Shown here piece by piece: positions 23,566 to 51,643 of a stretch of 64,000 bases of DNA; position 1 is the stretch's first letter; each line of letters starts with the position of its first letter. The notes beneath the pieces were generated by a model. It was not told where the DNA came from. It saw nothing but the letters and a program-made list of their open reading frames with translations, and ran no database searches. The DNA is taken from positions 18,714,569 to 18,778,568 of the forward strand of contig CM033395.1 in assembly GCA_019426215.1 (NCBI GenBank). Reading direction: 5' to 3'. Position numbers and translations under genes: made by a program. This DNA comes from Buddleja alternifolia (lineage: Eukaryota; Streptophyta; Magnoliopsida; Lamiales; Scrophulariaceae).

Positions 23566-23648
23566 GGGATTATCCGACTCCAGCAACTTGCTAACAATAA
23601 CACCTCCTGCTCCAGCATTTTGTGCAATTGTAAAAACATGTGTCTTGA
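23566..23648 (-). pseudogene. Mitochondrial HSP60/chaperonin-60 fragment
   Basis: Twenty-eight codons on the minus strand read FKTHVFTIAQNAGAGG then VIVSKLLESDNP. This is close to the apical/equatorial segment of mitochondrial chaperonin HSP60 that I remember as KTPVFTIASNAG.EG..VVGKLLEQDNP, about two thirds identical. HSP60 folds imported mitochondrial proteins; this scrap cannot. It is fused on one side to the UPL7-like fragment through about 40 unassigned bases and on the other to LTR-like sequence. Short length keeps confidence moderate. Confidence 0.55.
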
Positions 23649-23687
23649 ATGTATTTTGAATAATTTTAAAACTAATTTTCTAATCTC

Positions 23688-24460
23688 AGTTTGATGTTCG
23701 CAACCGATCAAGAGTTTCTTCAAATGCATTGCCATTCGTAATCAGTATGCCGAAAGTAGGCTCCAAATACTTAAATCTAAGCAAAGGCCCATGTCAGCAC
23801 CCCGTTGCAAATTTCCAAATTTCGTCTGATTTTGCAAGCTAACATTCTCAATAACTTGCCTGAACATTTGAATGACATAGTGGTCGTTGTGACAGCCTCC
23901 TGCATATATGGTATGAGCTCGAAAATCATTAACATCAATGCTATCCACTGATCCAGATATTAAAAGCTGAAATTCATGCTCATTAAACATGCCAACCCCA
24001 TCTTTCTGAATTAGCTATTGAAACCCTCTCAAAAAATGAGAATTTTATTGACGTATCTGAAAGTTCAATCTATGATTTATCACGAGATGAATGAATGTAA
24101 CGACATTCTCGTTTGTGACATGGATGTTTTTTCCTCCTAGAATCAGCTCTTCTTTTGTTTGCTCCACATGTTCATTGTTAGGAATAACAAAATATAGTTC
24201 TAACTCAGCACTATCACCCCATAAAGCTTCAGGAAAATCAGATAGCGATACAATTCTGGATCCAAGGAGGGTAAGTCATTTAAGTAGCTATACATTTACT
24301 TCAACTTGCTCAAGAAGAATGTTGCAAATGGTATATCAACCGAAATCCCTTCAGAGTTTAGACATTACCTTAGATAGTCTATATTGGATGCCAATTGCAG
24401 CCCGAGTACTATTTGCCATGAAATATTTGCAAATTCCTCCACCATCTATACCAGCCTCCT
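23688..24460 (-). pseudogene. HECT E3 ubiquitin ligase fragment, UPL7-like
   Basis: On the minus strand the HECT domain is readable from EAGIDGGGICKYFM through VDIPFATFFLSKLK, LNDLPSLDPELYRYL, NVVTFIHLVINHRLNFQIRQ and MFNEHEFQLLISGSVDSIDV to FKYLEPTFGI and AFEETLDRLRTS. This matches plant UPL6/UPL7 (UPL7 by memory) over about 250 residues. At least four in-frame stops and two frameshifts interrupt it. It stops before the catalytic-cysteine region (the TC(M)NLLKLP motif is absent). No intron interrupts the aligned part. It begins exactly where the MSL10-like fragment ends, inside the acidic run EQEDEEAG. Confidence 0.8.
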
Positions 24461-24546
24461 CGTCTTCTTGTTCATGATGAATTTCAACAAATGGTGGCCC
24501 AAGAAGCATCTCAATCACATATTGATTGAACAACAACTCTAAGAGA
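24460..24546 (-). pseudogene. MSL10-like channel fragment, distal piece
   Basis: The minus strand encodes LLFNQYVIEMLLGPPFVEIH followed by HEQEDE. This corresponds to the segment LFNQYVIETLSGPPLIEI of plant MscS-like channels MSL9/MSL10. It is continuous with the piece at 38252-38690 once the sirevirus (24552-38246) and one CATAG copy are removed. About 30 residues expected between VWLCLL and LFNQ in the family are missing. The fragment then switches to UPL7-like sequence. Confidence 0.75.
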
Positions 24547-24551
24547 CATAG

Positions 24552-26071
24552 TGGTGGTCCCAAGTGGCATACGAAAGGGTCTAGAGGGGGGGAGGGGTTG
24601 AATAGACCCTGAAGTCTTTTTCGACTTCAAAAATTTCGTATCACTTTTAAAGATTAGAACGCTTAGGAAGCTGAGCACTTGGGTCAGGCGCTTCAGTAAA
24701 GATAACTTAGACTTAGTGATTTTAGCAATTTAATTTACCAAAGTAGGGTAAAGCTTGAATCGCTTAATCAGGGTTAGCACAACGGAAATGATTTGAAAGC
24801 TTTAGTGTTCGTTTTGGTTAAATAGTCGCTTAGCAGTTTAGTTTGTTTTTTTCAGAATAAATAAGATAACATAAAACAAGACAATAATGAAAGTAAATAA
24901 CACAAGAAATTGTAAGGTTCACTGGGTGATGTAATCTCATCTACGTCCTTCTTCTCCTTTTTCACATGGAGAGAATTTACTAAGTTGATTATCAAAGAAT
25001 CACACAGAATCTTCTACAAGATAGTAACGAGGTGAACATGATCTCGGGCTCCTTGATCACACAGATTTCAGCACCAATGAAGATCTTCTTTTACAAGTTT
25101 CTCTCACTCAGAAGTACTGCCTATAAGGGTTTTCAACTACTTTCTCACTCAAATGAAAGGTTGAGGGTTTTGTCACACAGGTTTTGTTTGTTTTTTGGAA
25201 AGATTAAACAACTTGGATTATCTCAGTAAGAATTTAGGTTTCTTCTTTGAAAGATGTTTGAGATATTTGTGACTGTCTGGAATGTATGTAAAAAGCTTGA
25301 AAGCTTTTGGCTATGGAGTTTCAAAACTTTTCTTGAGATAATATTTCAGCAAAGGTTTCTTGTGTTGATCGTGATTATTCTTTTTTTTGTTTTTTTAGGG
25401 TTTGCTGGGGGTAAGGTATTTATAGGCTATTCTTGAAAATTGTCCGTTGGACACATGTGAGCACGTGTTCTTCACGCGGCGCGTGAATCAGCCTTTTTCT
25501 CTGACATTCCTGAAATCCTGCTGGTTCCGATTGGACGGGAGCAACTTTGAATTCTGAAATCCTGACAGTCTAGTCAAAAGGTGGCTTATCCACAAGTCAT
25601 AATAGCTTATCACATTTAATGCTCTTATCAGGCAATTAATGCATTTGAATTTATTTCCCGTTGAAAATAAATGTTCGTTGAATGATTGCATTTAAGTCCT
25701 TCATGACTTGATGATTTATTTCAAGTGAATCTGATATTGATCACTGGATTATTTTGAGCGCTTGATCCACAAACCCTGAAATCGTCCCTTAGCGTTTGAC
25801 AGTTGCTAAGTACAAATCTTTATCTTCATTTGACTTCAGACGCTGATCTTCAACTTCTTCTCTAATAGACTCACCCAGAATTCTATTAGCGATTCGGTAT
25901 CTAATACTTAGTCTAAAATCTACAAAGATAAAAATTACAAGCCTAACAAAATTACATACTTTCAAACGCTTATACATTTATCTATGAAAATAGAAACTTA
26001 CATTATATTTGGGGTCTAACATAAAATCCTCTCTTGTCATCATCAAAATATCTAACATGAAATTCTTAACA
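24552..26071 (-). repeat. Sirevirus 3' LTR, 1520 bp
   Basis: On + it starts TGGTGGTCCCAAG right after CATAG. It contains the 'ctagaggggggg...ttgaatag' block typical of sirevirus LTR ends and finishes ...ttcttaaca. On the minus strand it starts TGTTAAGAATTTCATG after the PPT. It is near-identical to 36846-38246 but has 107 additional bases at its left (24552-24658). Confidence 0.9.
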
Positions 26072-26090
26072 ATTTCACCCTTTTTGATGA
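26072..26090 (-). promoter_or_regulatory. Sirevirus polypurine tract
   Basis: Minus strand 'catcaaaaagggtgaaat' directly upstream of the LTR start TGTTAAG. It matches the usual sirevirus 'CATCAAAAAGGGGGAGATTGTT' with two changes. Confidence 0.75.
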
Positions 26091-26486
26091 TGTCAAGACC
26101 TTAACTCTTATAACTCTTTTATAGATTAAGAGTTCAAAGAAAAGTCCAAAAATAATTATAAGTTAGCGTTTGGAAAGTTAGTAAAGTTAACTAATGTTAG
26201 ATTAGCCTCAACAAGATGTTTCAGCGATAAATCATTCATTCATTCATATGGAAGAAGTAAGCATACATGATTTATAACTGAAAGAAAAATACTTTAAAGC
26301 GACAAACAGAAACAACATAATCCTTCATCTTTTCTGTGGCTTTCTATTTGCTTCTTTTTCTTGATAGATTTGAATTGCTAAGTCCAGTGGAAGTCTATCA
26401 ACATCTACCATAGTTGTATGCTGAACTTCATTGTAGTCATGTCTTCTGCGTCTAGCGCTTTCTTCCAGCTCCAACAACCTTTCCAC

Positions 26487-29400
26487 CTAATCCCTCGGAG
26501 GGATTCCAAGTTCTCGGATCAAGTCATGGTAAATGTCTTGTCTTCGATCATTGGTGGGTTTCCAGTTGATAGGTCTTCTAAGCAGTCCGACATATGGGTG
26601 AAAACCCATACTCTCTAAGAACTCAACCTCCAGGTTTGGGAGTAAGTGCCTTCCTTGATAATATCTAGGCTTTCGCTTCTTAGTAAGCATTTTATTTATA
26701 CTCACTATCTCCTCGAACATAGATCGCCAATGCTTGTTATCTGTCTTAGAGATAGCCTTGGACTGGGACTTTTCTTTAAGATCTTCCCCCTTCTTGGCAT
26801 CATCAAAGGAGATCTTGAATTCAGTGATGTCCCGGCGGAGAAGCTTAACTTCATCTATCAAAAGAGCAATTTGCTCAGCGATACTCTGAGAGATCAAGTT
26901 GGAAGAATTGTGGCGCTCAGTATTAGCTGAAGCATTCTGGGCAAGCATCTAATTGAATTCTTCGGAAAGAAGTGATAAGCGGTGATATGCTATCCATAAT
27001 TCCTATGGTGCTTTCTGTTGCAGAATTTGCAATACCACGACTTCTAGTTTCAGAAACTAGCATGATATTTAGTTCATTATTTTCAAGGATCTTAGAGCAG
27101 GAACCTTTGATGGTATTGAGCGAGTTCCTAACAGCTCTTCTAAAGTCTTTAGACTCTTGATCACTTTTCGAATCTGAATCAAAGGAGGAAGAACGCTTGG
27201 GAGATAGAATGAGTCCGTATGAGCTCGAAACTGCAGCCCTGCCTTTAGATTTGTCTCTTACAAAAGGCTCTTCAAGCTCATCAAGGACTCCCTGAACTTC
27301 TTCAATCGCTTGATCCATTGATGGATCTGCAAGCGCTAGAGAGGGCTCGACTACTGGGGCGCTAGAAAGGTCTGGCAAAGAAGCCTCGGGTATTTAAGTG
27401 GCTTCCACAGTAGGAGAATCTTCTATTTCAATAGTTTGGATTGGAGAAGGGACTTTCATGGCAATGACCCAGAGTGGGCCAATCGCTTCCATAATACGCC
27501 TTGGACTGAGGAAGTTGGTCTGCGGAATATAAACTATAGCGTCTTCGTGCTCTTCAGTGCTGAGTGCAAATTGCACATCCTCCGGCAAATCAACTCCTGA
27601 AATGTAAGTGTTGTAGTAGTCCAAAATAAATGGCATAAGTGCTTGAGCTGCTTCTTGGTCCACTGGCCTAATCATTGATATCATTTTGACCACTTGTATG
27701 TTCTGTTCACAAAATAGGACGGGAAGCAAGTTGTATCCTTTGAAGTCACTAAAACCGGGACCGAAATATGGAGTGATTGAAATATCCAGTGACTGAGCAT
27801 TTTCAATTATCGCTCGGTGCTCATGGTAAAATTCAGCAAGGTCAGCATGGTCATTGTCAAGGCTGAAAGGGACTTCACTTTTCCCTGGCAGAATTGGTTG
27901 CGTACTAGAGGAAGCATCCTCATTGAGGTCAGGAAGGATGCGCTGAACAAAGTTCTGAGTTGGATGATAAATGTAGCGTCCTCCTTGAGCGATAAAGCTG
28001 AGATGCTGGCGAATATAGCGTTCTATTGATTGTCTGTAATAGGGTAAAGCGCTAATATTGCCTACCAAATTCTGGCGCTGCTGGAGAAGAAACACGGCAA
28101 AACCTTTACGTCTGTAATCTACTCCAAAATGAAACAAGAGTGGACAGTTCACAAGCTCTTCCAGCGTGTAAAAGTGTAACACGAACTCTTCGGCCCATCT
28201 TGCGGTATCCAACATCTCGCTTTCCAAGTTTATCAGCTTTCTTCTGATCTTTTCTTGCTGCAAGAAACTTTTCAAAGCGTTCAAATTCTTCATCATAATC
28301 CTCAGCCCATACTCTTGCTAGATACTCGCGGGCTTCAGCTTCTATCCAAGAATTAATAGGATTAGGACGCTCAGCAACAACTAGTCCTTTTCCTTTCCAT
28401 AATCTGAGAGGTTTAGGGGATAGAGTGTTCTGAGGAGAATGAACGACTTTGGGGTCAGCGGACTACCCGATTCTGTTGAGAATTTCTTCGTCTGGATTTT
28501 TTGACCAGTCACCCATATGGGGATTCTTGATGACGATCTTATTCTGGCGAAATGGATAAAAAGACTCTTCAGAGTGGCCAGTAAAGTTGAAACGCTTCTC
28601 GTCAAATTCTGTCATGTTGAGCGCTGGTCACCGAATATACTAAAGGCGAGATTGAAGACGATCAAGATTGTAGAGACCCAGGTCAGGGAATCGCTCGAAA
28701 AATCCAAATTTAACAGAATTAGAGACATCAGTCCTATGGAGAGTTTTTGAAAGTTGATCTCCATATCGACTAATTGCCTGGTGTCAAGCTCCCTGGTGGC
28801 AAAGTAGAATTCATCATTTGCATCATAGCCACGGGGAAAGAAATTGATGACACGGGGAGGAGATCCAGTTGGAGTAGAGACAAAGGCAATAGACTCTGTT
28901 GGGATAGGGGCCACTTCTATCGAGTGCTCAGCAAGCACAGTCGCTTCACTGACTGGAGACGTGCCAGCGTCAGGAAGGACTGGGGTATTTCCTTAGCGAT
29001 ATCCACAACTTCTTCCATGTCTACATCCACTTCAATAGGAATCTCGTGGAGGTGCATCAGCGTCTGGTGCTTTTTGAGCTGATACATGAAAGCGTTTGAG
29101 AAAAGAAAGCAAAATTTCTACTAAGTAGCAATTAATAAAATAATACAACGCTTATTCTGAGGAGGTTCATCGACTGTTACAGTCGCTTGATTTGTTTCAA
29201 CATTTGGTACAGTTTTCTCAGGCTCTGGGACCACTTCTTCTGGATCTAAATCAAGGAAAGAAGTGAGGGGAACAACTTTAATAGGGATTTTTCAAGCATC
29301 CAAAGTATTCAGTATATACTGAACATCACGATCTATTCGAGTTGTAAGAATTTTTATCCTAGCCTTAAAGAAAAATAACGAAAAAAGGATAAAATACATT

Positions 29401-30440
29401 GTTCTTCATAAGTACTTACCCTGAAAGAGATTTGACTTTTCAAAAGGTGTAGCAGGCTCTGGCTAGGAGCAGTTTCAGGAACAGCTTTCGAAGAGGTAGG
29501 AGGAACACTCGCTGGTTCTTCAAGCGCTGGCTCGATTGGAGCGCTTGTTGATGCAGCTGGAGTGGATAAAGGAGTACGCTTGCGGGCTAGCGGTACTTCT
29601 TCTTCTTCTTCTTCTTCCTCTTCTGCTTCTTCTTCCTCTTCCTGAGGGAATATAAACGCTGGAGGGGGAGAGGGTGATTTAGGAGAAAGAGTGGGAGACT
29701 TCTGTTTCTTCTTGGGCTCCGGCTTCTTCTTTTATTTCTTTGCGGGCTTGGCTGGCTCAGCGACCTTAACAGCAATCTTTCGTTTTATTCGCTTAACCAC
29801 CACTGCTTCCTCTGATGAAGACGAAGATGTTTTCTCTTTATCATGGCTGCGGACAACTACTTAGGCAAGAAGTTGCTCACGCTCTTCTTTGGGAACCGCT
29901 GCGCCGCCACGTCTCCTTGGCTTAAGCAACTCGCTGATCATCTACCATAGAACTTTAGCACTGGGACTTTCTTTCCAGCGGTGTTGGTGAAACCGCTAGC
30001 GCTAAGAATACGACTAAGTACAATCCCATAAGGCTTGGGATTAACCGACTTGGCCATCGCTGCCTTAAAGCGATTAAAAACGTAAAGCGACGAATTAATC
30101 TTCAATTTGGTTAGAATGACCACCATCATCATGTATTAAACATTTGAAATCTTATCGAAGCTTCCCTTTTTGCATTTGATCATCTTCACACATATGTCCG
30201 CAAGAATGATATACTCGCCCTTCATGTCATTCTTCTTGAAGTTGGGTTCGTAGGTAGCTTCAACTTCATCCTTCTTGATTAACGCCCAGACTCTTGGATG
30301 AGTGGAAGAACAGTCCTTAGAGGGAAGTTCTGGTTATCAAATAGGTAGTCCCAGTTAGCAAGAAATCCGGCGTTAACAGTGACTGATTTTTCAGTTTTGG
30401 AGGATTTTCCGGCAGCAGATTTTGAAGATTTAGGTCCCAT
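26487..30440 (-). pseudogene. Sirevirus third ORF downstream of pol (env-position)
   Basis: About 1,300 codons' worth of minus-strand sequence from ATG at 30440 (MGPKSSKSAAGKSSK) to about 26487, broken into frames at 30440-29938, 29775-29587, 28938-28612, 28296-27394 (300 aa), 27378-26923 and 26948-26487. Features: a basic Ser/Lys-rich start, 'FLANWDYLFDNQNFPL', a Pro/Lys-rich then Glu-rich tract near 29587-29760, and a C-terminal part with coiled-coil character (IAEQIALLIDEVKLLRRDIT). I see no signal peptide or membrane span, so nothing supports an envelope role. Its position matches the extra ORF of SIRE-type elements. Stops near 30130 and 28470 and several frameshifts show it is dead. Confidence 0.6.
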
Positions 30441-31301
30441 TGATGAACTTTTGAAGCTTTTTGAGAGAGAGAGTGCGAATACTTTTTGCCTTGAGAGAGA
30501 AAGAGATTTTACAGCAAAGAGAATTTTTGAAAGTGATAAAGTTTGACTGTAAAAACTTTGAGGGATTTATATAGAGGCAAAAATAACTCTTCAGTTTCTA
30601 GGATTAATGCCACATGTTAAGTTATAAATTTTTAAAATTGAAATATTTAAATCTAAGCCGTTTACTCATAAATACGGATGTCAAAAAGTGCGGTAAAATA
30701 GGGTAACAACTCTAAATAACAAAGGTTTGAAATCCGCAGTTACTTTTTCAAAACGTTTGAATAATTTTGAAATTTTCAGTGTGTAGTACATGCGCCTGAT
30801 AGTACACGGACACGTACTCACACAGGTGAAGTTACTGAACCACCTAGTTTTTAGATAGGAATCATTAACCATCAGTTTGATTTGATAAGCACGTGTGGGC
30901 AATTGTCAAATCTAATCCTTTGGACTTATCCACACGATACCTTTTTAGCGATGAAAACTATGGATGAATTTTATAAAAAGGTTACTTAGTGTTAAAGTGG
31001 GAATCTCTTTAACGCTTAAGTTTTTTTGACAAAGGTCAATCGCTTTTTGATCTTAAAAAGATAACTTTATTCAATTTTGTTAGCGAGTGATTGTGTCATG
31101 CATAAAAGATAAACGCTAGTGATCAATGCATAAATTTTCAAAGTCATTTTTCACCACAGTCGCTTATGGATTGAAACAAGTATAATTTTAAGGTTCCCCC
31201 TAAAATTGATGACTTATTTCAATTTTGAAAACCATTTTATACATAAACATAAAGTGGATTCCCCCTAAATCATATGCCTATAAAGTATGATGCTTTATGA
31301 T
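30441..31301 (-). other. Sirevirus spacer with repeated PPT-like motifs
   Basis: Non-coding between pol and the third ORF. Two minus-strand AGGGGGAA motifs (at 31194-31201 and 31261-31268, each in a 'tttagggggaa' context) resemble the main PPT. Multiplied PPT-like motifs are, as I recall, a sirevirus hallmark. Nothing else is recognised. Confidence 0.5.
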
Positions 31302-32845
31302 TTAAGCGTTTAAATCAATCATACCTAATTCACTTCTCAAAGCGAGAAAACGTTGTTCGTTGAGCGCTATGGTGAAGATATCTGCCAATTGTTTGTCAGT
31401 TCCAATAAAGTGCATGGAGATATCTTTCTTTTGAACATGGTCACGCGAGAAATGGTAGCGAATGTCAATGTGTTTAGTTCTGGAATGAAGGACAGGATTT
31501 TGGGTCATAGCTAAAGCGCTTTGGTTATCACAATGGATTGGGGTAGGACCTAAGATTGTTCCATAATCTCTAAATTGTTGCCTCATCCAAAGGATTTGTG
31601 CACAACAGCTCCCAGCGGCTACGTACTCTGCTTCAGGGATAGAAGTCGCTATGGATTGTTGTTTCTTACTATGCCACGAAATCAATCTATCATCTAGAAA
31701 TTGACATGTACCACTAGTACTCTTTCTATCTATTTTGCATCCTGCAAAATTTGCGTCTGAATAACCAATTAGTTCAAAAAGAGAGTCCCTTGGATACCAG
31801 AAGCCCACATTTTGTGTGCCTTTTAGGTATTTAAGGATTCTCTTGGTACCATTTAAGTGTGATTCTCTAGGATCAGCTTGAAAGCGTGCACACATGCATA
31901 CCGAAAACATAATGTCGGGTCTACTGGCATTAAGATAAAGAAGTGATCCAATGATACCTCTATAGTTAGTGATATCAATTTTCTTCCCACTTTCATCTTT
32001 ATCTAACTTAAGCGTTTGGCTCATTGGAATTTTTGAAGATGATGCACTTTCCATACCAAATTTCTTAATCATATCTCTTGTATATTTAGCTTGGTTTATA
32101 AATATGCCATTAGGGAGTTGTTTAACTTGTAATCCTAAGAAGAAAGCTAATTCACCCATCATGCTCATTTCAAATTGATCTTGCATCATTTTCAAAAATT
32201 TCTCACACAATCGCTTATTAGTAGAAGCAAATATAATATCATCAACGTAAATTTAGACTAAGAGAATATCTTCATTATGGGTGCCTTATCAACGCTACCT
32301 TTTAAAAAGCCTTTACCTATAAGGAAGATAGAGAGAGTGTCATACCATGCTCTTAGTGCTAGTTTAAGGCCATAGAGTGCCTTATCCAATTTGTAGACCA
32401 TATTGTTCCCATGGTTGTTGATGAATCCTGGAGGTTGCTCCACATAGACTTCTTCTCAGAGTTTACCATTCAGGAAAGCACTCTTCACGTCCATTTGATA
32501 CACTGTGAACGTGTTGAATGCGGAAAACGCTAGGAACATCCTAATCGCTTCAAGACGGGCTACTGGGGCATACGTCTCATCAAAATTAATACCCTCTTCT
32601 TGACAATAACCCTGAGCGACTAATCTGGCTTTGTTTCTTATGACAATGCCATCTTCATCCATCTTGTTCCTAAACACCCACCTAGTCCCAATAACTCCTT
32701 GGTGAGTTGGTCTTGGTACTAGCGTCCAAACCTTGCTTCTCTCAAATTGGTTAAGCTTTTCTTGCACTGCTTCTACCCAACTTGAATCACTGAGCGCTTC
32801 ATCCACTTTCTTTGGTTCCATTTGAGATAGAAAGCTTGCGAACAT
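31302..32845 (-). pseudogene. Sirevirus reverse transcriptase and RNase H
   Basis: The minus strand encodes copia [59 protein letters not shown] (catalytic YVDD intact, near 32225-32245), FLGLQVKQLPNGIFINQAKY and IGSLLYLNASRPDIMFSVC. RNase H follows: IGYSDANFAGCKIDRKSTSG, ISWHSKKQQSIATSIPEAEY and HCDNQSALAMTQNPVLHSRT, ending at 31302. A stop after NGKL (about 32455) and another just before IYVDD interrupt it, and there is a small frameshift near 32270. The RNase H part is one open frame of 302 codons. Confidence 0.9.
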
Positions 32846-34513
32846 GGCCTCATTAATTGTTGTGGACCTAGTTCTAACAAGTGTTTCAATATCTCCAATA
32901 ACTAGCTCTGGTGGATGATCTTTAAGCCATTTACGGTCTGGTTAGAAAGGGCTGAGAGACTCTTTATTATCAATCGCTTGACCGTCATTTGTCTCTGGCG
33001 CAGTTGCTGCATTATTCACTATTCCAATTTGCTCTTGATGATCATTCTCTTCATGATCATCAACGATTCTGACCATATCATCATTAGCAACCTCATGAGT
33101 AATCTTAGGATCAGTCACAAAGATCTCATCATCCTCATCATCATCACTATCATCACCAAGATTGACGCTTGTTGGGCAAGATCTTCCATTCCTATATCAT
33201 CAGGATCAACCTTACTCAGTTCTTGGTTAGCATCATCAAACACAACATGAATGGACCCTTCAACCTTTGATTTGATCTTATTTAGTATGCGAAAACTCTT
33301 TCCATTCTTGGCATAGCCTAGAAAGATTCCCTCATCCGCTTTAGAACCAAACGTCTTTAGGCTTTGGGATCCATTGTTATGAATGAAACATTTTGAACCA
33401 AATACATGAAATTATGAAACGTTAGGCTTACGTCCCTTCCCATAACTCATATGGAGTTTTCTCATGTTGCTTGTTGATCATACACCGGTTCTGAGTGTAG
33501 CAAGCGGTATTGATAGCTTCGGCCCAAAACCTTTGAGGCAGCTTAGACTCTGCAAGCATTATCCTGGTGGCTTCTTTAAGCGTTCTGTTCCGTCGCTCGG
33601 CAACTCCATTCTGTTGAGGTGTTCTAGGGGCAGAATACCCATGAAGTATTCCAAAATCTATACAAAACTTCTCAACAAATTGGTTAGTAAATTCAGTTCC
33701 TCTATCGCTTCTAATTCTTGTCACCTTGAAATCTTTATAGGTTTGCAATTGACAGATTAGCGATGTGAGCTTGACACTAGTTTCATCTTTGGTCGCTAGG
33801 AATTCTACCCATGTATAGCGAGAGAAATCATCAACTATTACTAGCAAGTACTTTTTACCACTAACACTCATGATTTGAATAGGTCCAAACAAATCTAGAT
33901 GCAATAGTTCAAGAACTTTAGAAGTAGATAGGCATTGTTTCTTCTTAAAAGATGATTTAACTTGTTTACCCATTTGGCATGCATCACATAAGCGATTTTT
34001 CTGAAAGGAACCCTTAGGTAATCCCTCTACTAGATTTAGCGATTTTAACTTAGAGATTGCCTTAAAGTTGAGGTGATTCATTTTTCTATGCCATAACCAA
34101 CCCAATTCATTTTGACTTTTAGCAACAAAGCATGTGGGGTTGTTATCAATTGTAGAATCCCAATCTACTAAATACACATTGTTTGTTCTTTTTCCTCTTA
34201 ATTTAGTAGATTTAGTCTTAGCGTCGTTAACATAGCAGCAGTCACTTGAGAATTTTACTTCAAATCCTTTATCACAAAATTGATTAATGTTTAACAAATT
34301 ATGATTAAGACCCTCAACATAATATACATCACTAATCATGATGTTCCCCCTATGCATGATACCTATACCTTTGGAGTTATCACCGAATATAACTTGAGGA
34401 CCGTTGGTAGCTCGATAGTTGATTAGAAGATCCTTGGAACCCGTCATGTGTCTTGACGATCCACTATCAAAGTGCCAAACTGAGGTATCGGTGTTGGCTC
34501 TAGGTACCTGCAT
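32846..34513 (-). pseudogene. Sirevirus protease and integrase
   Basis: The open frame 34513-33428 starts with the copia protease core WHFDSGSSRHMTG. The GAG-pre-integrase zinc-binding part follows (LWHRKMNHLNF ... CDACQMGK), then the integrase core with all three acidic residues in context: LLHLDLFGP, IRSDRGTEF and NGVAERRNRT. It ends with CYTQNRCMINK. Beyond 33428 the minus strand continues as the pol linker (for example 'KTFGSKADEGIFLGYAKNGK', near 33350-33290) with a break at the stop near 33425. Protease and integrase catalytic residues are present. Confidence 0.9.
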
Positions 34514-35312
34514 TTAAAGGGCAGTTCTAATTCTTCTTAGATACCCATGTTGTCTTGGGTCCTTCAACGTTAGCAACTTTAGTTTGAATTAAAACTTTCG
34601 GAACCCATATTTGCCTGGTCTTCATTACTGGAAGATTGCCCTCTTGGGTTTCACATTGTGTTGTGTGTGCTTTTTGGGTGTATAATAATATCCTTGATTA
34701 TAATAGTAATCATAATCATAATCATAATCATCATAGTATCGATAATATGATCTAGATCTTTGAGGATATTGACGCTGGTACTTCCTCGGCACTGGCTTAG
34801 GAGTCGCTTTTGGCGATTGACTTCTAGCGTTTGATTTATTTGTAGATGGTTTATCCTTAGCCTTTTAAGCGTTTGGATGAACCTTCTTCTGTGAATCATT
34901 CACTTTTGTCTTTTTCTTATTGCCTGAGTTGCTATTGAACTTCTCATTTAGCCTCTTACCATTGTCCTTGGGTTCATTCAGCGTTTGACTGTTTGAACTC
35001 TTCTCAACAAAGAATACACCTTTTCCTTTGTTGGTTGTTGTAACCATAGACACTTTTGATTTTTGACCAAGTTATCACAACCTAAACCGGTCTTTTCATT
35101 AAAAAGTTTGGTTACTTCAGTCACATTATCTAGATTTCTTGAAGCTTTGGATAATGATGAGACAAGCTGCTCTGATTTGTCAAGTCTAGCGATCATATCA
35201 GCTTCTCTCTTGACTATTATATCAAGATCGCTTTTCAATTGAGAAATTTCACTCTCAAGCGATTGGTTCTTCTCAATGCATTGTTGCTGAACTTGTAACT
35301 CTTCTTTGAGTG
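34514..35312 (-). pseudogene. Sirevirus gag-pol linker, coiled-coil region
   Basis: Minus-strand frames at 35238-34978, 35053-34865 and 34899-34651 encode a Lys/Ser/Asn-rich stretch with heptad-like 'ADMIARLDKSEQLVSSLSKA' and 'NSNSGNKKKTKVNDSQKK'. This belongs to the long sirevirus gag-pol junction; frameshifts separate the pieces. Confidence 0.55.
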
Positions 35313-36735: not shown

Positions 36736-36833
36736 AATGAGATGTTTAAGAGAAAATTTAAAGCGACTAAGTTTATAAAAATGGATCTAAACAAGCAGTT
36801 ACGCTCGGAAACGCTTAGGTTTCTACTTCAACC

Positions 36834-36845
36834 GCTCTGATACCA
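36834..36845 (-). promoter_or_regulatory. Sirevirus primer-binding site
   Basis: Minus strand TGGTATCAGAGC (with 'gg' following), the copia tRNA-iMet site. It directly abuts LTR sequence that corresponds to 24659 of the other LTR, so 107 bp of the 5' LTR end are missing between them. Confidence 0.8.
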
Positions 36846-38246: not shown

Positions 38247-38251
38247 CATAG

Positions 38252-38690: not shown

Positions 38691-38704
38691 CCTAAAACAT
38701 TTGA

Positions 38705-41008: not shown

Positions 41009-41009
41009 G

Positions 41010-41023
41010 TGGTATCACAGCCA
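41010..41023 (+). promoter_or_regulatory. Copia primer-binding site
   Basis: TGGTATCACAGCC, one base off TGGTATCAGAGCC, one base after the LTR end. Copia tRNA-iMet type. Confidence 0.75.
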
Positions 41024-43413
41024 ATCTCTGATTTGCCTATTTGATCGTGTTTACATAATTTAAGATATGCATGTTATGTGGTTTTGAAGCATGTTTGTAT
41101 GTTTTCTTAAATCTGCGTTTTTATGGTTTTTGCCTAGAATTTTGATTTTTTAGTTATTGTAAATCTGGGAATATTTGATGATATTGACAAATCGAAAAAA
41201 TCGAGGAAAAACGGGGCTCAAAGAGCCCAGAGAATCTGTACGTGTGCAGGCACGCTGCTACTGCGCGCAGCGTGCGCACATGGCCTGGCCACCTGCACAC
41301 TACCCATCGGGTCGTGTGCTCAACCCGACGGGTCGTGTGTTTCGACACCTGATTCATTGATTTGGGTCCGTGATCCGGGTCGGTTAATAGGCCAAGTGTT
41401 GGGTCAAAATTGAAATTTAGGTTTGGCTAAATTTAATTATTTGGGTGGGTCAAAGGATGATAACCTGATATAATTTAATTAAGCCTAACAAGAAATTTAA
41501 TCAATCTCGACTTATTAATTACTTTGGGCTTAATTTAATAAACTCCAAATGGGCACATTGGATGGGTGATTTGGACTTTAATTAAAAATAGCCCAATAAA
41601 AATTAATAAAATGTGCATGTTTTTCCGAATTAATTAATTTGAGCCCAATTGAATTAAATCCAAGTAGATCAAAAGGATGGTAACTTGGGTTTGATGAAAT
41701 CAAGGCCAATAATATTAATTGGAATAAAATAATTAATTAATTATTTTTTTTAGATATTAATAATTAATTTATGGATTAAATATTTTTTTTTCCTCAACTT
41801 GGAAATTACTTAATTTTTGAATAAGGAATATAAATTATTTTTCTTAGAGATTAATAATTAATTCTTTGATCAAATAAAAGTATTTCCAATTAAAGATGGT
41901 ATTAAATCATAATAAAATAGAATTCCATATTTTATATAATCTTTTAGTAGGACTAATATTATTTTAATTAAAGGTAGATATACTTAATTTTAATTTCATA
42001 TATCTAAGTCATCTAGTTGGATTAGAATGATTTTAATTCAAATATTGAATGTATAAAATGCGGGGAATTTTATAAAGGACTTTTTAATTGGACTAAACTT
42101 TTAATAATCAACATAAGTGATTTAATATTGCGAGCACATATTAAATATTTCGAGCATGTATTAATTGATGCGAGCATGCCTTACGTGATTGTAACACCAA
42201 TCGTGGTCTTAAGTTTATTTGTTTTACCTTTATATTTTATGGGTTATCAAGTTTGAGGCTATTTAATATGTTCTTAGAAATAATACATGAGTTGTTTTAG
42301 GAATTGAAATAGAATAGTTCAAAATTGATAAAGTCAAAAGGCCCATGAATGTTTAATAGGTTTCAATTTATGCCATTTGTGATGGCCCATCGGCTTGGGG
42401 CCTCTAGTAAAGGAGTGATGGATTTATTTATTTAAATTCCATGATTATTTATATTGAAAGACATGATTATTAGTAGTATTTTTATGCATGATCAATATAA
42501 AATAAAAGCGATAAAATTGAATAATGTGCAAAGTGAAACCAAAACCTTTTGACGAATTAAAAATCTCTCAAATAAATAATACCGAATTAGTAAAGGATGT
42601 TTGACATCCTCTCCCTCCACTAAGCTTTCTAAAATGAAAATTAGGGAAAATTGCATATAACCCCCCTGTGTTATCATTTTTTTGCTGAAAACCCCCTTGT
42701 GTTAGCCTAAACCCTGCACGAAACCCCCAACCCTACATCAAATACACTGCGCGTGTATGCTACTCTCCGCGGATTTAACACGAATTGGGGGTTTTTTGCA
42801 GGGTTTAGGCTGACACAAGGGGGTTTCGTGCAAAAAAATTAACACAAGGGGGTTTTCAGCAAAAAAGTGATAACACAGGGGGGTTATATGCATTTTTCCC
42901 TTAAAATTACTATAAACGTGTAATGCTTCCCAGTTATGGGGGTTATGCATTTAGAAATAATTTGAAATTTTACTAAGTGCATGAAATGCCTTAATCGAAG
43001 CATATTTCACCCCAGAAACCTGTTCGGTTGCAAGGTGAAAGTCAAATGTTAGATTATAGGAGTTAGTGGAAATGAACTCGGGTAGTTCACGAGCTTAGAA
43101 ACCTGTTTGGTTGCGGTTTGGTGAACTATGGGGAAAGGTATTGAAATGTTTATTGGATTAATTGATATTAGATATTACTTTAAATAATTAATGGGACAGA
43201 AACTGGTTAGGTTGCAACCCATCTAATTAATTGAGGACCTCAATACCCGTTGTGGAATCGATGCCAATGACGATTTCCGATTTTCACATGGGAGTGTGGG
43301 ATTCGAAAATGCAGTGGGAGCCAAGATTAATTTTAAGTCCTTAATTTTTCTTGGTTAAGTCAAAACAAGTAATCTAATTAATCTGGTTAATTTCTTGTTT
43401 ACCTGTCTCAAAT
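41024..43413 (+). other. Copia leader, with GC islet and nested MITE
   Basis: No gene. A GC-rich islet (41210-41360) contains facing 'gggtcgtgtg' and 'cgcgcagcgtgcgc' motifs in AT-rich surroundings. Repeated 'gagcatgYattaa/gcgagcatg' words occur near 42130-42180. The Mutator-type MITE is at 42644-42900. Confidence 0.55.
42644..42900. mobile_element. Mutator-type foldback MITE, 257 bp
   Basis: Inverted ends: GGGAAAATTGCATATAACCC and (right, reverse complement) GGGAAAAATGCATATAACCC, with homology running on through the CCCCTGTGTTATCA block. Flanks are tgaaaatta (42635-42643) and ttaaaatta (42901-42909), a 9-bp duplication with one mismatch, fitting Mutator-type transposition. The immediate TTA/TTA would alternatively suit a 3-bp duplication. 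The interior has further facing 'cccccttgtgttagcc/ggctgacacaaggggg', so the whole element can fold on itself. Confidence 0.8.
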
Positions 43414-44230
43414 ATGACAGACCCACTTTCTATTCTGCTAAAAAAGAATACTCTTACTGGACCCAACTATGTGGACTGACTTAGAAATTTGAGGATTGTC
43501 CTCAATATGGAATCTCTGGGATACGTCTTGGAGGCTGATATCCTGGCGGCTCCTACTAGAACACGTGCCAACGAGGAAGAGGTCCAAGCCCATGAAAAAT
43601 GGGTTAAGGACGACCTCCGGGTGAGAGGATACATGGTGGGATCTATGAACAATGATCTTCAAAGGTCACATGATAAGATGCCCACTGCAAGAGCTATCCT
43701 AGCTCACCTGGTAGAGCTCTATGGTGAGCACAGTCGAACTGCTCGATATGAGATATCGAAAGAGCTCTTCGGAGCCAAGATGAAAGAAAGTGAGAAGGTT
43801 GGTGATCATGTCCTCAAAATGATTTCGAGGATTGAGAAATTGGAAACTCTCGAATTCACCATGAACGCCACCCTTCAAACTGACTTAATCTTGCAGTCTC
43901 TTCCTGATTCCTTCTCCCAATTTGTAATTAACTTTAACTGCAATGAGATAGAGTGCAACTTAGCTGGGCTAATGAAAAATTTGGTTACTGCACAATCTCA
44001 AATGAAACCAAAGGGAAAGGAAACTGCCTTGGTCATTTCTTCTGGACCTAAAAAGTCTAAGTCTAAGAAGAACAAGAACAAGAAGCAGTTTGGCAAGCTT
44101 GGAGCTGAAGGGGGTGTCTAAAAGGGTAAGGGAAAATCTCAAGGGTTTTATAAGAGCAAAGGGCCTAAGAAAACGGATAGAGGTCTCGACTATGGTGCTT
44201 AGCCACTGGAAGAGGAACTGTCCCAAATTA
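43414..44230 (+). pseudogene. Copia gag
   Basis: Start ATG at 43414 (MTDPLSILLKKNTLTGPNYV). A TGA at 43477-43479 stands where the family has W (YVDWLRNLRIVL). Then a long open frame with HEKWVKDDLRVRGYMVGSM, LYGEHSRTARYEISKELFG, DHVLKMISRIEKLETLE and LILQSLPDSFSQFVINFNCN. After 44119 a frameshift leads to a decayed knuckle ('LSHWKRNCPK', about 44203-44230) lacking its first two cysteines. Confidence 0.88.
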
Positions 44231-45489
44231 GGCAAAGCCGCAAAAGGTATGGAACTCTTTGTTTTTGAAACTAACTGTTGTTTGACCGTCTTTTCTACTT
44301 CGTGGGTTCTGGACTCAGGGGCTAGTGCCCATGTTTGTTGTTTGGATCAGGATCTGCAGAGAAGTAGAAGGCTGGGCCAAGAAGAAGTGATGATCAAAGT
44401 AGGCAGCGGGGAAAGCGTCGCAGCTACTAGGATTGGATCTACTTCTCTTTATTTTAATTCTGGACATTTATTATTATTGAATGATGTTTTAGTTTTGCCC
44501 AAGGGGCTTAAGAACATTGTATCTATTCCTATCTTAGTTAAGATTCGGTATACATTCTGTTTTTCTAAGTTAAATTGCGACATTTATTATGGAAATAAAT
44601 TGGTTGGCAATGCTTCTTTAGTTAATGGTTTATATTATTTAAATGTCTTTAATTCATCTGTTGTGAATGTTGTAACTCATAAACGTGGCAGGCAAGAAGT
44701 TAACGTAAGGCTTAAGTGGCATCTTAGACTAGGCCATGCCGGAGAACACAAGATATACAAAATGGAAAATGATGGGCTTTTAAGCTCACTGGGGTCGGAT
44801 CCCTATCCAACATGTAAATCATGTGTCTTAGGCAAGATGGCTAGATCACCCTTCACCGAGACTTTTGAAAGAGCTACTCAAGTTTAGGGTTAGTGCATAT
44901 CGACGTTTGCGGACCATTTGGAGAAATGGCTCGTTGGGGTTTCTACTACTTCATCACTTTCACAGATGATCATTCAAGATATGGTTTAGTGTATCTGATG
45001 AAGCAAAAGTCTGAATCCTTTGAAAGGTTCAAAGAGTTCAAAGCCTTAGTAGAAAATCAAACTGGGCAAAATGTAAAAACTCTACGATCGGATCATGGAG
45101 GAGAATATATGAGTGCCGAGTTTGATGAATTCCTTAGACAACAAGGAATAATGTTATAACTAACACCGCCCGCAACCCCTTAACTAAATGAAGTAGCCGA
45201 GCGAAGGAACCAAACTTTGTTGGACATGGTTCGTTCCATGCTTAGCTACACTAATTTACCCATTTTGTTGTGGGGACATGCGCTCCTTACTACTGCTTAT
45301 ATATTGAATAGATGTCCCTCCAAATCCGTTCCTAAGACTCCGCATGAGATGTGGAATAATAGGAAACCAAGTCTTGATCATATTAAGATTTGGGGATGTC
45401 CTGCTTATGTCAAGAAGACTAAAGTGGAGAAATTGGAGACAAGATCCCTCATGGGACATTTCATTGGTTATCCTGAAGATTCCATGTGA
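44231..45489 (+). pseudogene. Copia protease and integrase
   Basis: The protease signature WVLDSGASAHVC is at about 44300-44335. GAG-pre-integrase (LKWHLRLGHAGEHKI ... CKSCVLGKM) runs to about 44860. The frame has a TAG at 44885-44887, then the integrase core: MHIDVCGPFG, FITFTDDHSRYGLVYLM, LRSDHGGEYMSAEFDEFLRQ, a stop (about 45160) and [19 protein letters not shown]. The D, D and E positions are present. The segment closes with [11 protein letters not shown] and [13 protein letters not shown] before another stop at 45487. Confidence 0.88.
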
Positions 45490-46802
45490 TTCTTCTTATA
45501 CCTCCATGATGATCAGAGAATCATCGTGACCCTACAAGATCACTTCCTTGAAGATGAGTTCATCTTGGAAGGGGCTAAAGGTAGGAAAATTGTTCAAGAA
45601 GAACAAAATGAAACACCCTCAGAGACATATGTCTAAGAATCAAGTCCGTAACCAATAGTAGCACAACCACCACGTAGATTTGGTAGAATACCACACGAAC
45701 CTGATAGGTATGGGTATCTACTGCAGGGGGAGCCAGAGCTTCACACTGTAGTACAAGAAGGTCATGAAGATGATCCATGTACCTATGATCAAGCGATGGT
45801 GGATGTCAACGCTTCAACATGGCGAGAAGCCATGGAAACAGAGATGAACTCTATGCAATCGAACCAAATCTGGACTTTGGTAGATCGTCTTGAAGGTATG
45901 AAACCTATAAGATGTAAGTGGATCTACAAAAGAAAGATAGGTAGCTATCGCAAGGTTGACACCTTTAAAGCCAGACTCGTAACGAAAGGGTATAGTCAAA
46001 GAGAAGGAATTCACTATCAAGAAACCTTTTTGCCCGTGGCCATGATAAAGTCCATTCGAATACTGTTATCCATAGTTGCATACTTAGATTATGAGATATG
46101 GCAAATGGATGTCCAAACAGCTTTCCTGAATGGATTTCTCGAGGAGGATATCTATATGGAACAACCAAAGGGTTTTGTATTTGAGACCAATATCCATAAA
46201 GTATGTAAACTTGAGAGGTCTATATACGGTCTCAAGCAAGCATCTAAAAGCTGGAATCTTCGTTTTGATGAAGTAGTAAAGGGATATGGCTACATCAAGA
46301 ACGAAGATGAAACATGTGTCTACAAGAAGACTAGTGGGAGCAAACCCTCGTTCTGAGTACTATATGTGGATGACATTCTGCTTATGGGAAATGATGTAGG
46401 AATGTTCACCACAGTCAAGAAATGGCTTTCGAGTACGTTTTCTATGAAAGACTTGGGAGAAACGACATACATTCTAGGAATTCGTATCTACAGTGATAGA
46501 ATGAATAGAAAGATAGGTCTCTCCTACGCCCTTTACTTAGAAAAGGTTCTAAAAAAGTTTAGGATGGACAATTCTAAGAAAGGGTTTATTCCCATGAGAC
46601 ATGGAGTACACTTATCCAAGTCTATGTGTCCTCAAAGCGTGGAAGATAGATAGGAGATGAGTAATGTACCCTATGCTTCTACAATTGGCAGCCTGATGTA
46701 TGCAATGCTGTGTACTAGACCCGACATTGCCTATGTTGTGAGCGTGGTGAGTCGATTTCAGGCAAACCTGGGAAAGGAACATTGGATAGCTGTGAAGAAT
46801 AT
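45490..46802 (+). pseudogene. Copia reverse transcriptase
   Basis: After a linker (for example RRFGRIPHEPDRYGYLL, with stops near 45635 and 45647) the RT reads WREAMETEMNSMQSNQIWTL, FKARLVTKGYSQREGIHYQE, WQMDVQTAFLNGFLEEDIYM and CKLERSIYGLKQASKSWN. A TGA precedes LYVDDILL (46357-46380; YVDD intact). LGIRIYSDRMNRKIGLSYAL, a TAG at 46651-46653 and PYASTIGSLMYAMLCTRPDI follow. The frame is cut after AVKNI by the solo LTR at 46803. Confidence 0.9.
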
Positions 46803-48196
46803 TGATAAGAGGAGTTTTTACGTGTTTTTAAGCCTATGATCTGATATTGTTGGAGTTATTTATTGCCTAAATCATGCCACAGTTGCGTTTAATTGGGGTG
46901 TTAAGTGATTTCAGGTGATAAACGAGAACACACGAAGAAAAAGGCGAAAAACGGTGCACGACACTTTTTGAAGCCTGTCGACCACGCCCAGGCGCCGATC
47001 TGACCACGCTCGGGCGCCGATCAAGAACAACAAACTTGATCCCTGTTGACCGCGCCTCGTCGCCGCACTACCCGCGCCTCGGCGCCGCACTACCCGCGCC
47101 TAGGCGCCGTTATACCCGCGCCCGAGCGCCGTACTATCCACGCCTGGGCGCCGCCAGACTTCTCCCCCAAGAAAAGTATGCCACGTAGGCTGCGCCTAGG
47201 CGCCGTATTTCCCGCGCCTACGCGCCGGCATAACCGTTTTTCAATTGTTTAAAAGCCAAATTTCAGATTGAAAGAGAGGTTCAAAAATCTGGGAATTGGA
47301 GACACTTTGCTGGGTTTTTGAGCCACAATTTCATCAACAATTGAAGGGGAAGAAGGGGGATTGAGCTAGAGATTGAGGCTACAAGCAAGGATTCATCATC
47401 ATTCAAGACTTAGGGAGTTTCTTTTGCATTTCATTTACATGTTTATGTTAATAACTATGTATATGATTGTTTTAGACCTTCTTGAGCTATTGAATATGAG
47501 CTAATCTTGTAGAACTAAGGCCATGTGAAGGCCTAATTTACAAATCATTATATGTGAAGTTAATTTTAATATTAATTCTCCTATTGCTTTGTGTGTTGAT
47601 TTTGTGCTTTTATTCCAATCATGTGTTTGATCACCATATGCTTGCTATTGTGCCTAATCTAGTCATTCGAGAGAAGATAGGTTAGGGTTCAAAGAAATCA
47701 ACACATCATCCGAAACTAATGTGGAATTGCTCCTAGAAATAGGTAAAGATTTTGCTGTTAGCCGGATTTATCTGGGGAAGCTCTAGAACGTTAATGCGTG
47801 GTTATTGATTAGATTCTCGGATAGACATATTTAGAGAACCGTCAATCAATCATAGGATTGTTATATGCCGAGACATCGGGTAATAGTTAATTAAGGAGTT
47901 TCCACCAAAACAATAGGAGTCTAATAATTCGAAGAGTAGCTCACGTATATTGATGCGTAGATTAGGTTGTAGCATGTGCCTTAGTCGTTTATCGCTCTTG
48001 AGTTTTAATCTGTAGTCTGTTTCTCTTTGTTCTTCGCTTGTTTCTCGTTATAGTGCAATTTACTTTCGTCCATTTTCATTAATCAAAAGCTAAAAATCCA
48101 AGTCCTTGAGGTTCGACAACCCGGACTTTTTGTCCACTTTATTACTACCGCGACTAGTACACTTGCTATTAAAGCACGTTAAGTATTAGCGTGTCA
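46803..48196 (+). mobile_element. Athila-type solo LTR, 1394 bp
   Basis: It begins TGATAAGAGG and ends ...AGCGTGTCA, with a perfect AATAT duplication at 46798-46802 and 48197-48201. Removing LTR plus one AATAT copy restores the copia RT/RNase H frame (AVKNI joined to LKYLKRTKDM-like sequence). The U5 side has 'ggttcgacaacccggact', as in the LTR at 5658-6879. There is no internal region, so it arose by LTR-LTR recombination. A GC-rich palindrome array lies at 46963-47232. Confidence 0.92.
46963..47232. repeat. Array of CGCC-TAGG-CGCC-like palindromes
   Basis: At least eight units of the form C-GCGCC-T-N-GGCGCC-G occur, several about 24 bp apart: 'cacgcccaggcgccg', 'cacgctcgggcgccg', 'cgcgcctcggcgccg', 'cgcgcctaggcgccg', 'cgcgcccgagcgccg', 'cacgcctgggcgccg', 'tgcgcctaggcgccg' and 'cgcgcctacgcgccg'. 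The middle four are tandem with spacers 'cactacc', 'ttatacc' and 'tactatc'. The variation is concentrated in the palindrome centre. Confidence 0.8.
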
Positions 48197-48201
48197 AATA
48201 T

Positions 48202-48751
48202 CCTAAAGTATCTCAAAAGAACTAAGGATATGATTCTCATCTATGGAGGTGGAGACCTGAAGATGGAAGGTATTCTGATTCAGAATTTCATTCTGATGTT
48301 GATGACCGAAAATCCATTTCAGGGTTTGTTTTTACTCTCAATGGTGGAGTAGTGTCTTGAAAAAGTTCTAAGCAAAGCACAACCGCTGATTCCACCACTG
48401 AACAAGAGTATGTGGCTGCCTCAAAGAACCTGTTTGGATGAGAAAATTTCTTGGAGTACTTGAATCGGTCCCCAGTGCTCGGCTTCCGTTACCACTTTAT
48501 TGTGATAACAATAGAGCAATAGCGCAAACCAAGGAACCAAGGTCTCATAACAAGTCCGAAAACATTGAGAGAAGATTTCACATCATCATAGAGATCATTG
48601 GCAGAGGAGAGACAGAAGTGCAGAAAATAGCCTCAGCTGACTATGTAGCTGACCTGTTCACCAAACCACTACCTCAGGCTGTTCGGACCGACACCTAGAA
48701 AGGATGGGTATAAGATACCACAATGAGTGGCATTGAGTGCAAGTGGGAGAT
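48202..48751 (+). pseudogene. Copia RNase H end and PPT
   Basis: Continuation of copia pol after the solo LTR: TKDMILIYGGGDLKMEG-like text, DDRKSISGFVFTLNGGVVS (then a TGA at 48358-48360), TADSTTEQEYVAAS, a frameshift, and LPLYCDNNRAIAQTKEPRSH with ADYVADLFTKPLPQ, ending about 48700. The polypurine tract 'aagtgggagat' (48741-48751) directly precedes the 3' LTR. Confidence 0.88.
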
Positions 48752-50426
48752 TGTTAGGATTATGCCCACCGATGCCATAGAGGATAGAATGAGTAGGGCA
48801 GCTATCTTGTATTGAACTTAATTATTATTAACAAAAGGCAATATTTAGTTTTTCACTTAATTCTTATCTGCATCTATAAGTTATGTAAAGCGCTTTGCCC
48901 ATGTTTTCAGTGCGATCCCTCTATTTCCTATGGGATAGGAAGAATGGCATGAGAGAGATCGACCTTGATTACTAAAACTCGTTCGCAAGTAATATGAAGT
49001 CTTTAATGGGCAAATAAAGATTTCGAATACTTGTACAATTTTAGCTTTGACATGGGAGTGCCAATCGAACACCATGTGATGGTGAGAGCTTATGACTATA
49101 GGCACATCAGTGGAACTGATATGCTCGAACACGACTCGCATTGATTCTGTCACATGGCTTTTCACTCTGTGACTGTCAATGACGGAACTGATTATGCGTA
49201 ATAGGTATATGTGAACATTTGACCTGAAATATCGAGCTGAAGATGCACTTGTGATGCAAGTCTTAGACCCAATTCACCCTTTGGTGGTCGACCTCGAAAT
49301 GCGACCCAATTCACCCAATTCATAGAGTACGTTACAAGTGAATGAGAATGTATTCTATGTAATTATGGATAAATAGAGATCAAGTCTTTGGCCAAAGCAA
49401 AAGAGACGATTGTACTAGGCACTTAATCGATCTCAATGATCTCGTATTATTATAATTTATACATATGATCAAGTCTAGTGAGTTTGACATAACCGTGACT
49501 CTCACTTGACGGGGAACGTGAACAAAGGGTTTATACATATACGGTATTTACGATTGGAAGGTTGTGGAATGATCAATTCCTTCGTATTTCGTTTGGGCTA
49601 CGAAGTGGGCCATGTGACTGGCTAGGTGTTACCCACTTCCTTTGGTTTCCTCTCATTGCCAAATGAAACGAACCTAAAGAGTTGAGCTAAAGAATTGATG
49701 AAGAAAATTGAAAAGGATTTTCTATTTTATTTTTGGAGAGATTTAATTTATTGTATAAGTTATATAGTTAATTAATTACTTATTGGATAAGATAATTAAT
49801 TAAATGGATAAAATTAATTATTAATTAATTTCTTGGAGAAATATAATAATGAATTAATTTTATTATTTATCTAATTAATTTATTTATTGGATAAAATTAA
49901 TTATTAATTGAATAAAGAATTAATTAACAAAACAAAAGAAATTTCGGGCCTCTTGGACGCCCATTAGGCTAGGTTGGATGATCAATTTGGTCTCTTTTGT
50001 TGTCTTGGTCAATAAGTCATTGAGGTATAAAAGACTTCTCTTGACTTTAACCTAGAAAAATAATGACTTTGTATCAACTCTCCAAACACTAGCCGTCGCC
50101 CATGTAGAGAAAAGAAGTGGGATTTTTCATCATCAATTCATGCGTGCTAATTTAGAGACAACGTGATTCGTTGTTTGGATTAATTTACAAGAAGCTTCAA
50201 GAAATCAAGACTTGAAGAATACGATGTTTGAAAAATTCAAGAAGTTCATCAATTCGAAGAGTTGAAGAAGAATTGGATTCTCCTACTACCTTGCTTCAAC
50301 GGGTAAGTTGATTTATTCGTTAAAGCGTTTTTGATTCAATTATGCGATTAGAGAAACACTTTGGGTTTTTGTAAAAAATTTTGAAATCCTTCCGCTGCGT
50401 TTATGAGTTTTTTCGTGAAACCAACA
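48752..50426 (+). repeat. Copia 3' LTR, 1675 bp
   Basis: It begins TGTTAGGATTATGCCC and ends ...gaaaccaaca, aligning throughout with 39243-41008. GTAAT follows at 50427-50431. Confidence 0.92.
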
Positions 50427-50429
50427 GTA

Positions 50430-50510
50430 ATACTGATTCTCACTATCAACATCCTGTTTCTCCGAATCTTCGCCCGAGTACTCAAACCCATAATTCTCCA
50501 TATCAACATC
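50430..50510 (-). pseudogene. CSN2 pseudogene, N-terminal piece
   Basis: The minus strand reads DVDMENYGFEYSGEDSEK then QDVDSENQY. This matches the N-terminus of plant CSN2 (DADMEDYGFEYSDEE..EQDVDIENQYY). The copia insertion falls in the YY codons; the sequence resumes at 39242 as YSTKV. The upstream bases do not continue CSN2, so the captured piece starts at or just before the CSN2 start codon. Confidence 0.88.
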
Positions 50511-50582
50511 AAAAATTATACATATGGGTATTCCATCCAAAACCTGACTATAACGAAAGACATCACGGAAAGTCATTGGTTC

Positions 50583-51601: not shown

Positions 51602-51625
51602 ATTTATAGATATGCCCTCAAATCG

Positions 51626-51643
51626 ATCGCTCTGATAGCCATT
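51626..51643 (-). promoter_or_regulatory. PBS-like sequence next to right LTR-like repeat
   Basis: Minus strand 'aATGGCTATCAGAGCGATCG' follows the repeat end ...cctgaca by about two bases. It matches TGGTATCAGAGC except for one inserted C, so it may be a decayed or slightly different tRNA-iMet site. Confidence 0.5.

Follow-up and report, generated by a model that had tools for sequence, protein, structure and literature searches.

An LTR retrotransposon copy in Buddleja alternifolia with intron-free pieces of four host genes, probably gathered in separate rounds

Introduction

The maize long terminal repeat (LTR) element Bs1 contains parts of three host genes (PMC13317346), of which it carries exons only (PMC4717578). 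Likewise, GmaRetroS15 of soybean, a terminal-repeat retrotransposon in miniature (TRIM), holds exons but no introns of three host genes between its LTRs and has 5-bp duplications, and gene-carrying TRIMs measure 1,172-1,449 bp (PMC4717578). Surveys of LTR elements have counted 672 captured genes in rice and 1,343 in sorghum (PMC3726574), the sense of transduced gene sequences is usually that of the element carrying them (PMC7264820), and Pack-MULEs hold exons together with introns (PMC4717578). In a maize survey, LTR elements were reported, under its conditions, to carry pieces of one host gene at most. Here, we describe a stretch of 64,000 nucleotides of Buddleja alternifolia (C6:18714569-18778568, the window hereafter), in which intron-free pieces of CSN2, an MSL10-like gene (MSL), UPL7 and HSP60 lie within what is apparently an LTR retrotransposon copy.

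Results

Four host gene pieces in one orientation

On the minus strand, the CSN2, MSL, UPL7 and HSP60 pieces follow each other head to tail and in a single orientation, which is also that of the element itself, with two copia-type insertions as the sole interruptions (Table 1). A sequence-only reading of the window had named these four genes and proposed a common orientation with no gap once the insertions are removed, and both proposals are borne out: CSN2, MSL10, HECT and HSP60 are significant in PDB or Pfam and have host loci in the same genome, the HECT piece being what we take to be UPL7. The cut points that it gave, 24552-38251 and 39243-50431, are correct, with each span holding one copy of the target duplication, and both insertions encode copia-type gag, integrase and reverse-transcriptase domains.

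Exon-by-exon comparison with the best-matching host loci of the same genome (853.6 Mb) revealed that ten parent introns are absent from the window copy, each at the matching exon-exon join, namely two of CSN2 (host locus C13:5953947-5954529), seven of UPL7 (C14:36993691-36996686) and one of HSP60 (C14:22959140-22959436). A further UPL7 join at 24367/24353 carries a small deletion and was not counted. Because these introns are missing at matching joins, the CSN2, UPL7 and HSP60 pieces are derived from spliced RNA. The lack of introns that had been proposed for the whole chimera is thereby confirmed for three pieces, while for MSL it is uninformative on RNA origin, since no intron interrupts this stretch in the host loci inspected (best matches on C8, C18 and others). 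The one exception is the 90 nt absent from the window MSL (Table 1), which start with GT and end with AG, with one base of ambiguity. In protein searches, the relatives of CSN2 were mostly spread over flowering plants and the closest relative of MSL was from Sesamum; the nearest solved chain to the UPL7 piece is UBE3C (4.3e-25). Stops are now present in all three frames of the CSN2, MSL and UPL7 pieces, and we therefore claim no protein function for the window copy.

Homology between donors at the junctions

Microhomology had been suspected at the switch from MSL to UPL7, and homology between donors is indeed found there as well as at the two other gene-gene junctions. The host loci of MSL and UPL7 have CGAGGAG in common, and those of UPL7 and HSP60 share roughly 37 bases, with gaps; the switch between these two falls within 23729-23693, a segment in which the window matches either gene. 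The donors at CSN2-MSL are also alike, with GATCCAAATGTACACCGAGAC in the CSN2 gene as against GATCCGAAGGTACACTAAGAC directly upstream of MSL in C1, a complete family member described below. The similarity between the donor templates was compared with 20,000 random placements for each junction, made with the same freedom as the real one and with C1 as the second template at CSN2-MSL and host loci at the others, and it went beyond chance in every case (P 0.0002 for CSN2-MSL, 0.023 for MSL-UPL7 and 0.0019 for UPL7-HSP60). On reading the sequence, neither poly(A) nor a target duplication, the marks of independent insertion that had been named as speaking against a chimera, was seen between the gene pieces, and the junctions lie inside coding sequence.

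Sister copies with subsets of the pieces

A query with the LTR and the 5' region matched at least 18 other loci, in some cases over a short length or in the LTR alone (30 matches; 25 candidates scored). Three sister loci carry MSL. C1 (C1:11465448-11469831) is a complete element of about 4.4 kb with a TGGGG duplication and LTRs that are 97.3% identical over 490 bp; its MSL matches a host locus over 827 nt and comes within about 70 nt of the 3' LTR. C8b, with its 3' LTR at C8:32239835-32240323 and its 5' end outside the view, is 95.1% identical to C1 over 1,537 columns. C8a (C8:11142161-11146385, minus strand; LTRs 89.5% identical) holds short CSN2 remnants directly before MSL. As to the remaining interior frames, a resemblance of those of C1 to a CAMTA gene got no support from Pfam, NCBIfam or PDB, and a frame of C8a has a weak NCBIfam match to PFKA_PPi (4e-5), far under the cut-off.

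The MSL pieces of the window, C1, C8a and C8b group in a single clade that excludes the five host loci compared (support 94/90, just under the tool's star), with 12 shared differences among the 342 columns in which the host loci agree, and in all three sisters MSL extends beyond the point at which the window switches to UPL7. Of 78 CSN2 columns, 8 show a departure from the host gene that is common to the window and C8a, as against 0.94 expected, and this comparison suggests that the CSN2 capture is likely common to both. An apparent sharing of the 90-nt MSL gap by C8a was rejected, as the C8a deletion overlaps the gap but differs from it. Divergence from the host loci falls from 0.18-0.20 in MSL to 0.122 in CSN2 and 0.101 in UPL7, in agreement with the order of capture proposed below.

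The LTR carrier

The LTR element that carries the chimera had not been reported by the sequence-only reading. Judged from its sequence, it is probably a decayed, apparently non-autonomous LTR retrotransposon copy. Its 5' LTR is complete and its start is set by four relatives (C11, C14:28119871, C227 and C9:2718874), on which ground an LTR of about 325 bp from 51967 was rejected. The adjoining TGGCTATCAGAGC, one base longer than the usual site, is presumably a primer-binding site of the initiator tRNA-Met type. The 3' LTR is in pieces and ends in CG, whereas C1 has both LTRs complete; a full 3' LTR at 21434-21851 was rejected, since its middle belongs to the repeat inserted there. We can only guess that the join of HSP60 and LTR is the start of the R region, with a transfer of strong-stop cDNA to the HSP60 mRNA; in the 5' LTR, a weak TATA-like stretch is found some 30 nt further upstream, and the 3' end is scrambled. 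At 19140-19977, a stretch resembles by eye a miniature inverted-repeat transposable element (MITE), the end sequence of which recurs in the 3' patchwork at 23353-23450.

Pfam gave no reverse-transcriptase or integrase domain among nine translated element pieces, with 21433-23430 and most other family members lying outside the scan. For the 5' internal region, Pfam and PDB returned weak matches only (best E 0.04, none above cut-off), and a protein search with its 3' half and the start of CSN2 yielded none of 6 candidates.

Further family members

Other loci hold other genes. C13:6905693-6909369 combines CSN2 with an oxysterol-binding piece (Pfam 1.5e-19), and neither MSL nor an LTR was found in it; its CSN2, at C13:6907176-6907432, is a second intronless piece of this gene in a family member. 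C14b (C14:4913265-4917817, about 4.55 kb), in which the target duplication agrees in 4 of 5 bases if the LTR starts with TGCTAGG, has a sister copy at C9:14980063-14984027 (C9a) and a single open frame of 917 codons at C14:4913828-4916581 (L039:677-3166 and L055:1-264). This frame contains RRM_8 (under cut-off), AAA_2 (2.4e-10) and PHD_Oberon (4e-21), its nearest solved chain is VIN3 (9.6e-45), and a protein search gave 15 matches, all with AAA/Clp-type domains. Introns interrupt the VIN3-like and ClpB-like host loci at places where C14b is continuous, and the ClpB-like locus may itself be decayed, as the compared exons contain two in-frame stops. The long frame evolves near neutrally, with ratios of nonsynonymous to synonymous divergence of 0.73, 0.81 and 1.26 in three parts against C9a and, for five exon blocks compared with host loci, of 0.37 to 2.07.

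A locus on C5 holds RRM_8 (1.8e-13) and a FERONIA-like piece (2.9e-22). Within C5:45648752-45654668, RRM-coding frames lie inside repeated blocks beside the LTR, with a kinase-coding frame between them (L037:726-1416; L056:1918-2627 and 2617-3358), an arrangement that gives the impression of a host piece lodged within the LTR. Together, four family loci (the window, C13, C14b and C5) bear nine host genes or gene types that the searches support: CSN2, MSL, UPL7, HSP60, oxysterol-binding, ClpB-like, VIN3-like, RRM_8 and FERONIA-like. The 5' internal region of the window may hold a fifth captured gene, judging by its likeness to other loci. Its stretches 51060-50993 and 50867-50702 are similar to a C14b module, for which a split, exon-like counterpart exists at C18:6436800-6443500 (L057), the window match reaching only E 5e-4. 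Pairs of LTR-related matches about 5 kb apart were further noted at C2:50673839/50678882, C9:20498381/20503306 and C11:1202755/1207770; they are candidates for larger or autonomous relatives.

Surroundings of the element in the window include a 1.6-kb direct repeat (11245-12847 and 53662-55291, 79% identical), perhaps the LTRs of another element, a minus-strand stretch at 52440-53660 that by eye resembles a decayed Ty3-type reverse transcriptase, and a tandem array with units of about 113 bp at 55956-56520.

Table 1. Parts of the element and its later insertions, in window coordinates and in 5' to 3' order of the element
Feature	Position	Strand	Evidence or remark
5' target-site duplication CTTAA	52046-52050		same 5 bp at 21428-21432
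5' LTR, 402 bp, TGCCA...CTGACA	51644-52045	-	similarity of four relatives begins at 52045
Primer-binding-site-like TGGCTATCAGAGC	51629-51641	-	two bases beyond LTR end; similar block at same place in C1, C8a, C14b
5' internal region	50511-51628	-	common in part to other family loci
CSN2 piece, N-terminal part	50427-50510	-	PDB chain 9is6_B, E 8.3e-4
Copia-type insertion 2	39243-50426	+	target duplication GTAAT (39238-39242, 50427-50431)
CSN2 piece, second part	38716-39242	-	9is6_B, E 3.6e-33; two parent introns missing
CSN2-MSL junction zone	38716-38740	-	window matches CSN2 gene and sister element C1
MSL10-like piece, first part	38247-38715	-	8tdk_A, E 2.8e-21
Copia-type insertion 1	24552-38246	-	target duplication CATAG (24547-24551, 38247-38251)
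MSL10-like piece, second part	24456-24551	-	host comparison; 90-nt host stretch bounded by GT and AG missing
UPL7 (HECT) piece, nine exon blocks joined	23693-24475	-	Pfam HECT 8.1e-30; first ~20 nt overlap MSL match
HSP60 piece, two exons joined	23566-23729	-	E 1.1e-5; first 37 nt overlap UPL7 match
LTR fragment joined to HSP60	23503-23565	-	equals 51755-51693, 92%
Polypurine-tract-like block	23474-23504	-	also in C1, C8b, partly C8a; E 0.002 to 0.012
Patchwork of LTR tail, flank and MITE-like sequence	23315-23473	-	partly duplicates 21335-21510
Repeat insertion in 3' end, probably DNA transposon	21508-23317		relatives C18:25017523-25023823, C9:32977338-32993483
3' LTR, terminal part, ...CTGACG, 78 bp	21433-21510	-	sequence comparison
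3' target-site duplication CTTAA	21428-21432		matches 5' copy

Discussion

From our point of view, the intron-free host pieces were probably (at roughly 0.8) accreted in separate rounds of retrotransposition, by template switching at short homologies in an element of the Bs1 type. Element RNA and host mRNAs would have been packaged together in particles supplied by an autonomous relative, where reverse transcriptase would quit one template at a short match and resume on another, and the chimeric copy, once integrated, would serve as template for the next round. MSL would have entered first (window, C1, C8a and C8b) and CSN2 second (window and C8a), after which UPL7 and HSP60 would have replaced the MSL tail in the window copy alone, before two copia elements and another repeat broke the element up.

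Template switching had also been the core of the sequence-only reading, which envisaged it in series between mRNAs; by this model, a single reverse-transcription event would have chained element RNA and four host mRNAs. One orientation, junction homology and the missing introns suit this model too, and so does an HSP60 piece that is not less diverged than MSL. However, MSL is shared, as one clade, by three sister loci and CSN2 likely by one, and the sister MSL continues uninterrupted past the UPL7 switch, which makes separate rounds likely; as MSL runs on in C1, C8a and C8b, the UPL7-HSP60 part is best read as derived in the window copy. Since MSL is in addition more diverged from its host loci than CSN2 and UPL7, we regard the single chain as unlikely. 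That several cDNAs were joined while a chromosome break within an ordinary LTR element was being repaired is less probable still: the 3' patchwork with its MITE and flank bits does resemble such repair, but the pieces share one orientation, and the CSN2-MSL order at a second locus means that this part likely moved as a unit.

Two further explanations appear to us very improbable. DNA-level capture by Helitrons or Pack-MULEs is common in plants. Such elements often bear several gene pieces (PMC13317346), and the 3' end does contain a probable DNA transposon; yet the absence of ten parent introns at matching joins contradicts this origin, and LTR ends with a 5-bp duplication do not fit it. Separate insertion of four processed pseudogenes next to each other would likewise give intronless pieces, but the junctions lie within coding sequence and in donor homology, no poly(A) or duplication separates the pieces, and CSN2 and MSL stand in the same order in C8a.

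Several observations weigh against the accretion in separate rounds that we prefer. The divergence of HSP60 is 0.193 (standard error 0.035, 114 columns), which does not suit a late capture unless the donor was another paralogue. Of the further genomic copies envisaged for the junctions, the CSN2-MSL order was met again in C8a, but the UPL7-HSP60 part turned up in no other element (14 candidates scored). Only 2 columns of the MSL tree unite the window with C8a, and the 90-nt gap does not unite them, because the deletions differ. The first exons of the CSN2 gene were not found within C13:5941000-5958500. A common CSN2 capture of the window and the C13 element was rejected as a conclusion, as the 5 of 262 columns that they share decide neither way; the C13 element may have acquired this gene independently. 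The test of junction homology was, moreover, anchored on junctions already seen, and the 3' LTR is scrambled, so that the point where it meets HSP60 may be a product of later damage.

One could speculate that the family acts as a cumulative exon-shuffling machine, in which each round adds host cDNA at short homologies, siblings keep and recombine earlier modules and some products, such as the C14b frame with its RRM-like, ClpB-like and VIN3-like parts, may be proto-genes. This idea is tentative, and for us the balance falls slightly on the side of doubt.

As a rule, gene capture by LTR elements is deduced from its end products. In the present family, sisters with MSL (and no CSN2 found), with CSN2 and MSL, and with all four pieces exist side by side, and the order of capture therefore becomes readable; stepwise template switching as a source of chimeric genes becomes testable within one genome. 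In the literature searched (titles and starts of abstracts, most subscription journals being outside coverage), we met neither a family with nested subsets of captured genes among its siblings nor an element with the gene set of the window. The gene set had been proposed as new, which stands within this search, but LTR elements with three host genes are already described (PMC13317346; PMC4717578).

Bs1, to which the chimera had been likened, is the right comparison. Like Bs1, the window copy is an LTR element with intron-free pieces of several host genes, a 5-bp duplication and a primer-binding-site-like block; unlike Bs1, it holds other genes, four instead of three, and its sister copies show separate stages of build-up. 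Host gene pieces inside LTR elements also link it to the elements surveyed in maize, rice and sorghum. Compared with TRIMs, C1 (about 4.4 kb) and C14b (about 4.55 kb) are larger, and gene sets differ between siblings. Pack-MULEs and Helitrons, too, carry several host gene pieces, but the window copy differs in its missing introns, its LTR end and its 5-bp duplication, and it is unlike an L1-type processed pseudogene in that no 3' poly(A) or duplication of its own was seen for any piece. With three-gene LTR elements already in print, the kind is therefore known, and it is the cumulative, family-wide form that the Buddleja element adds.

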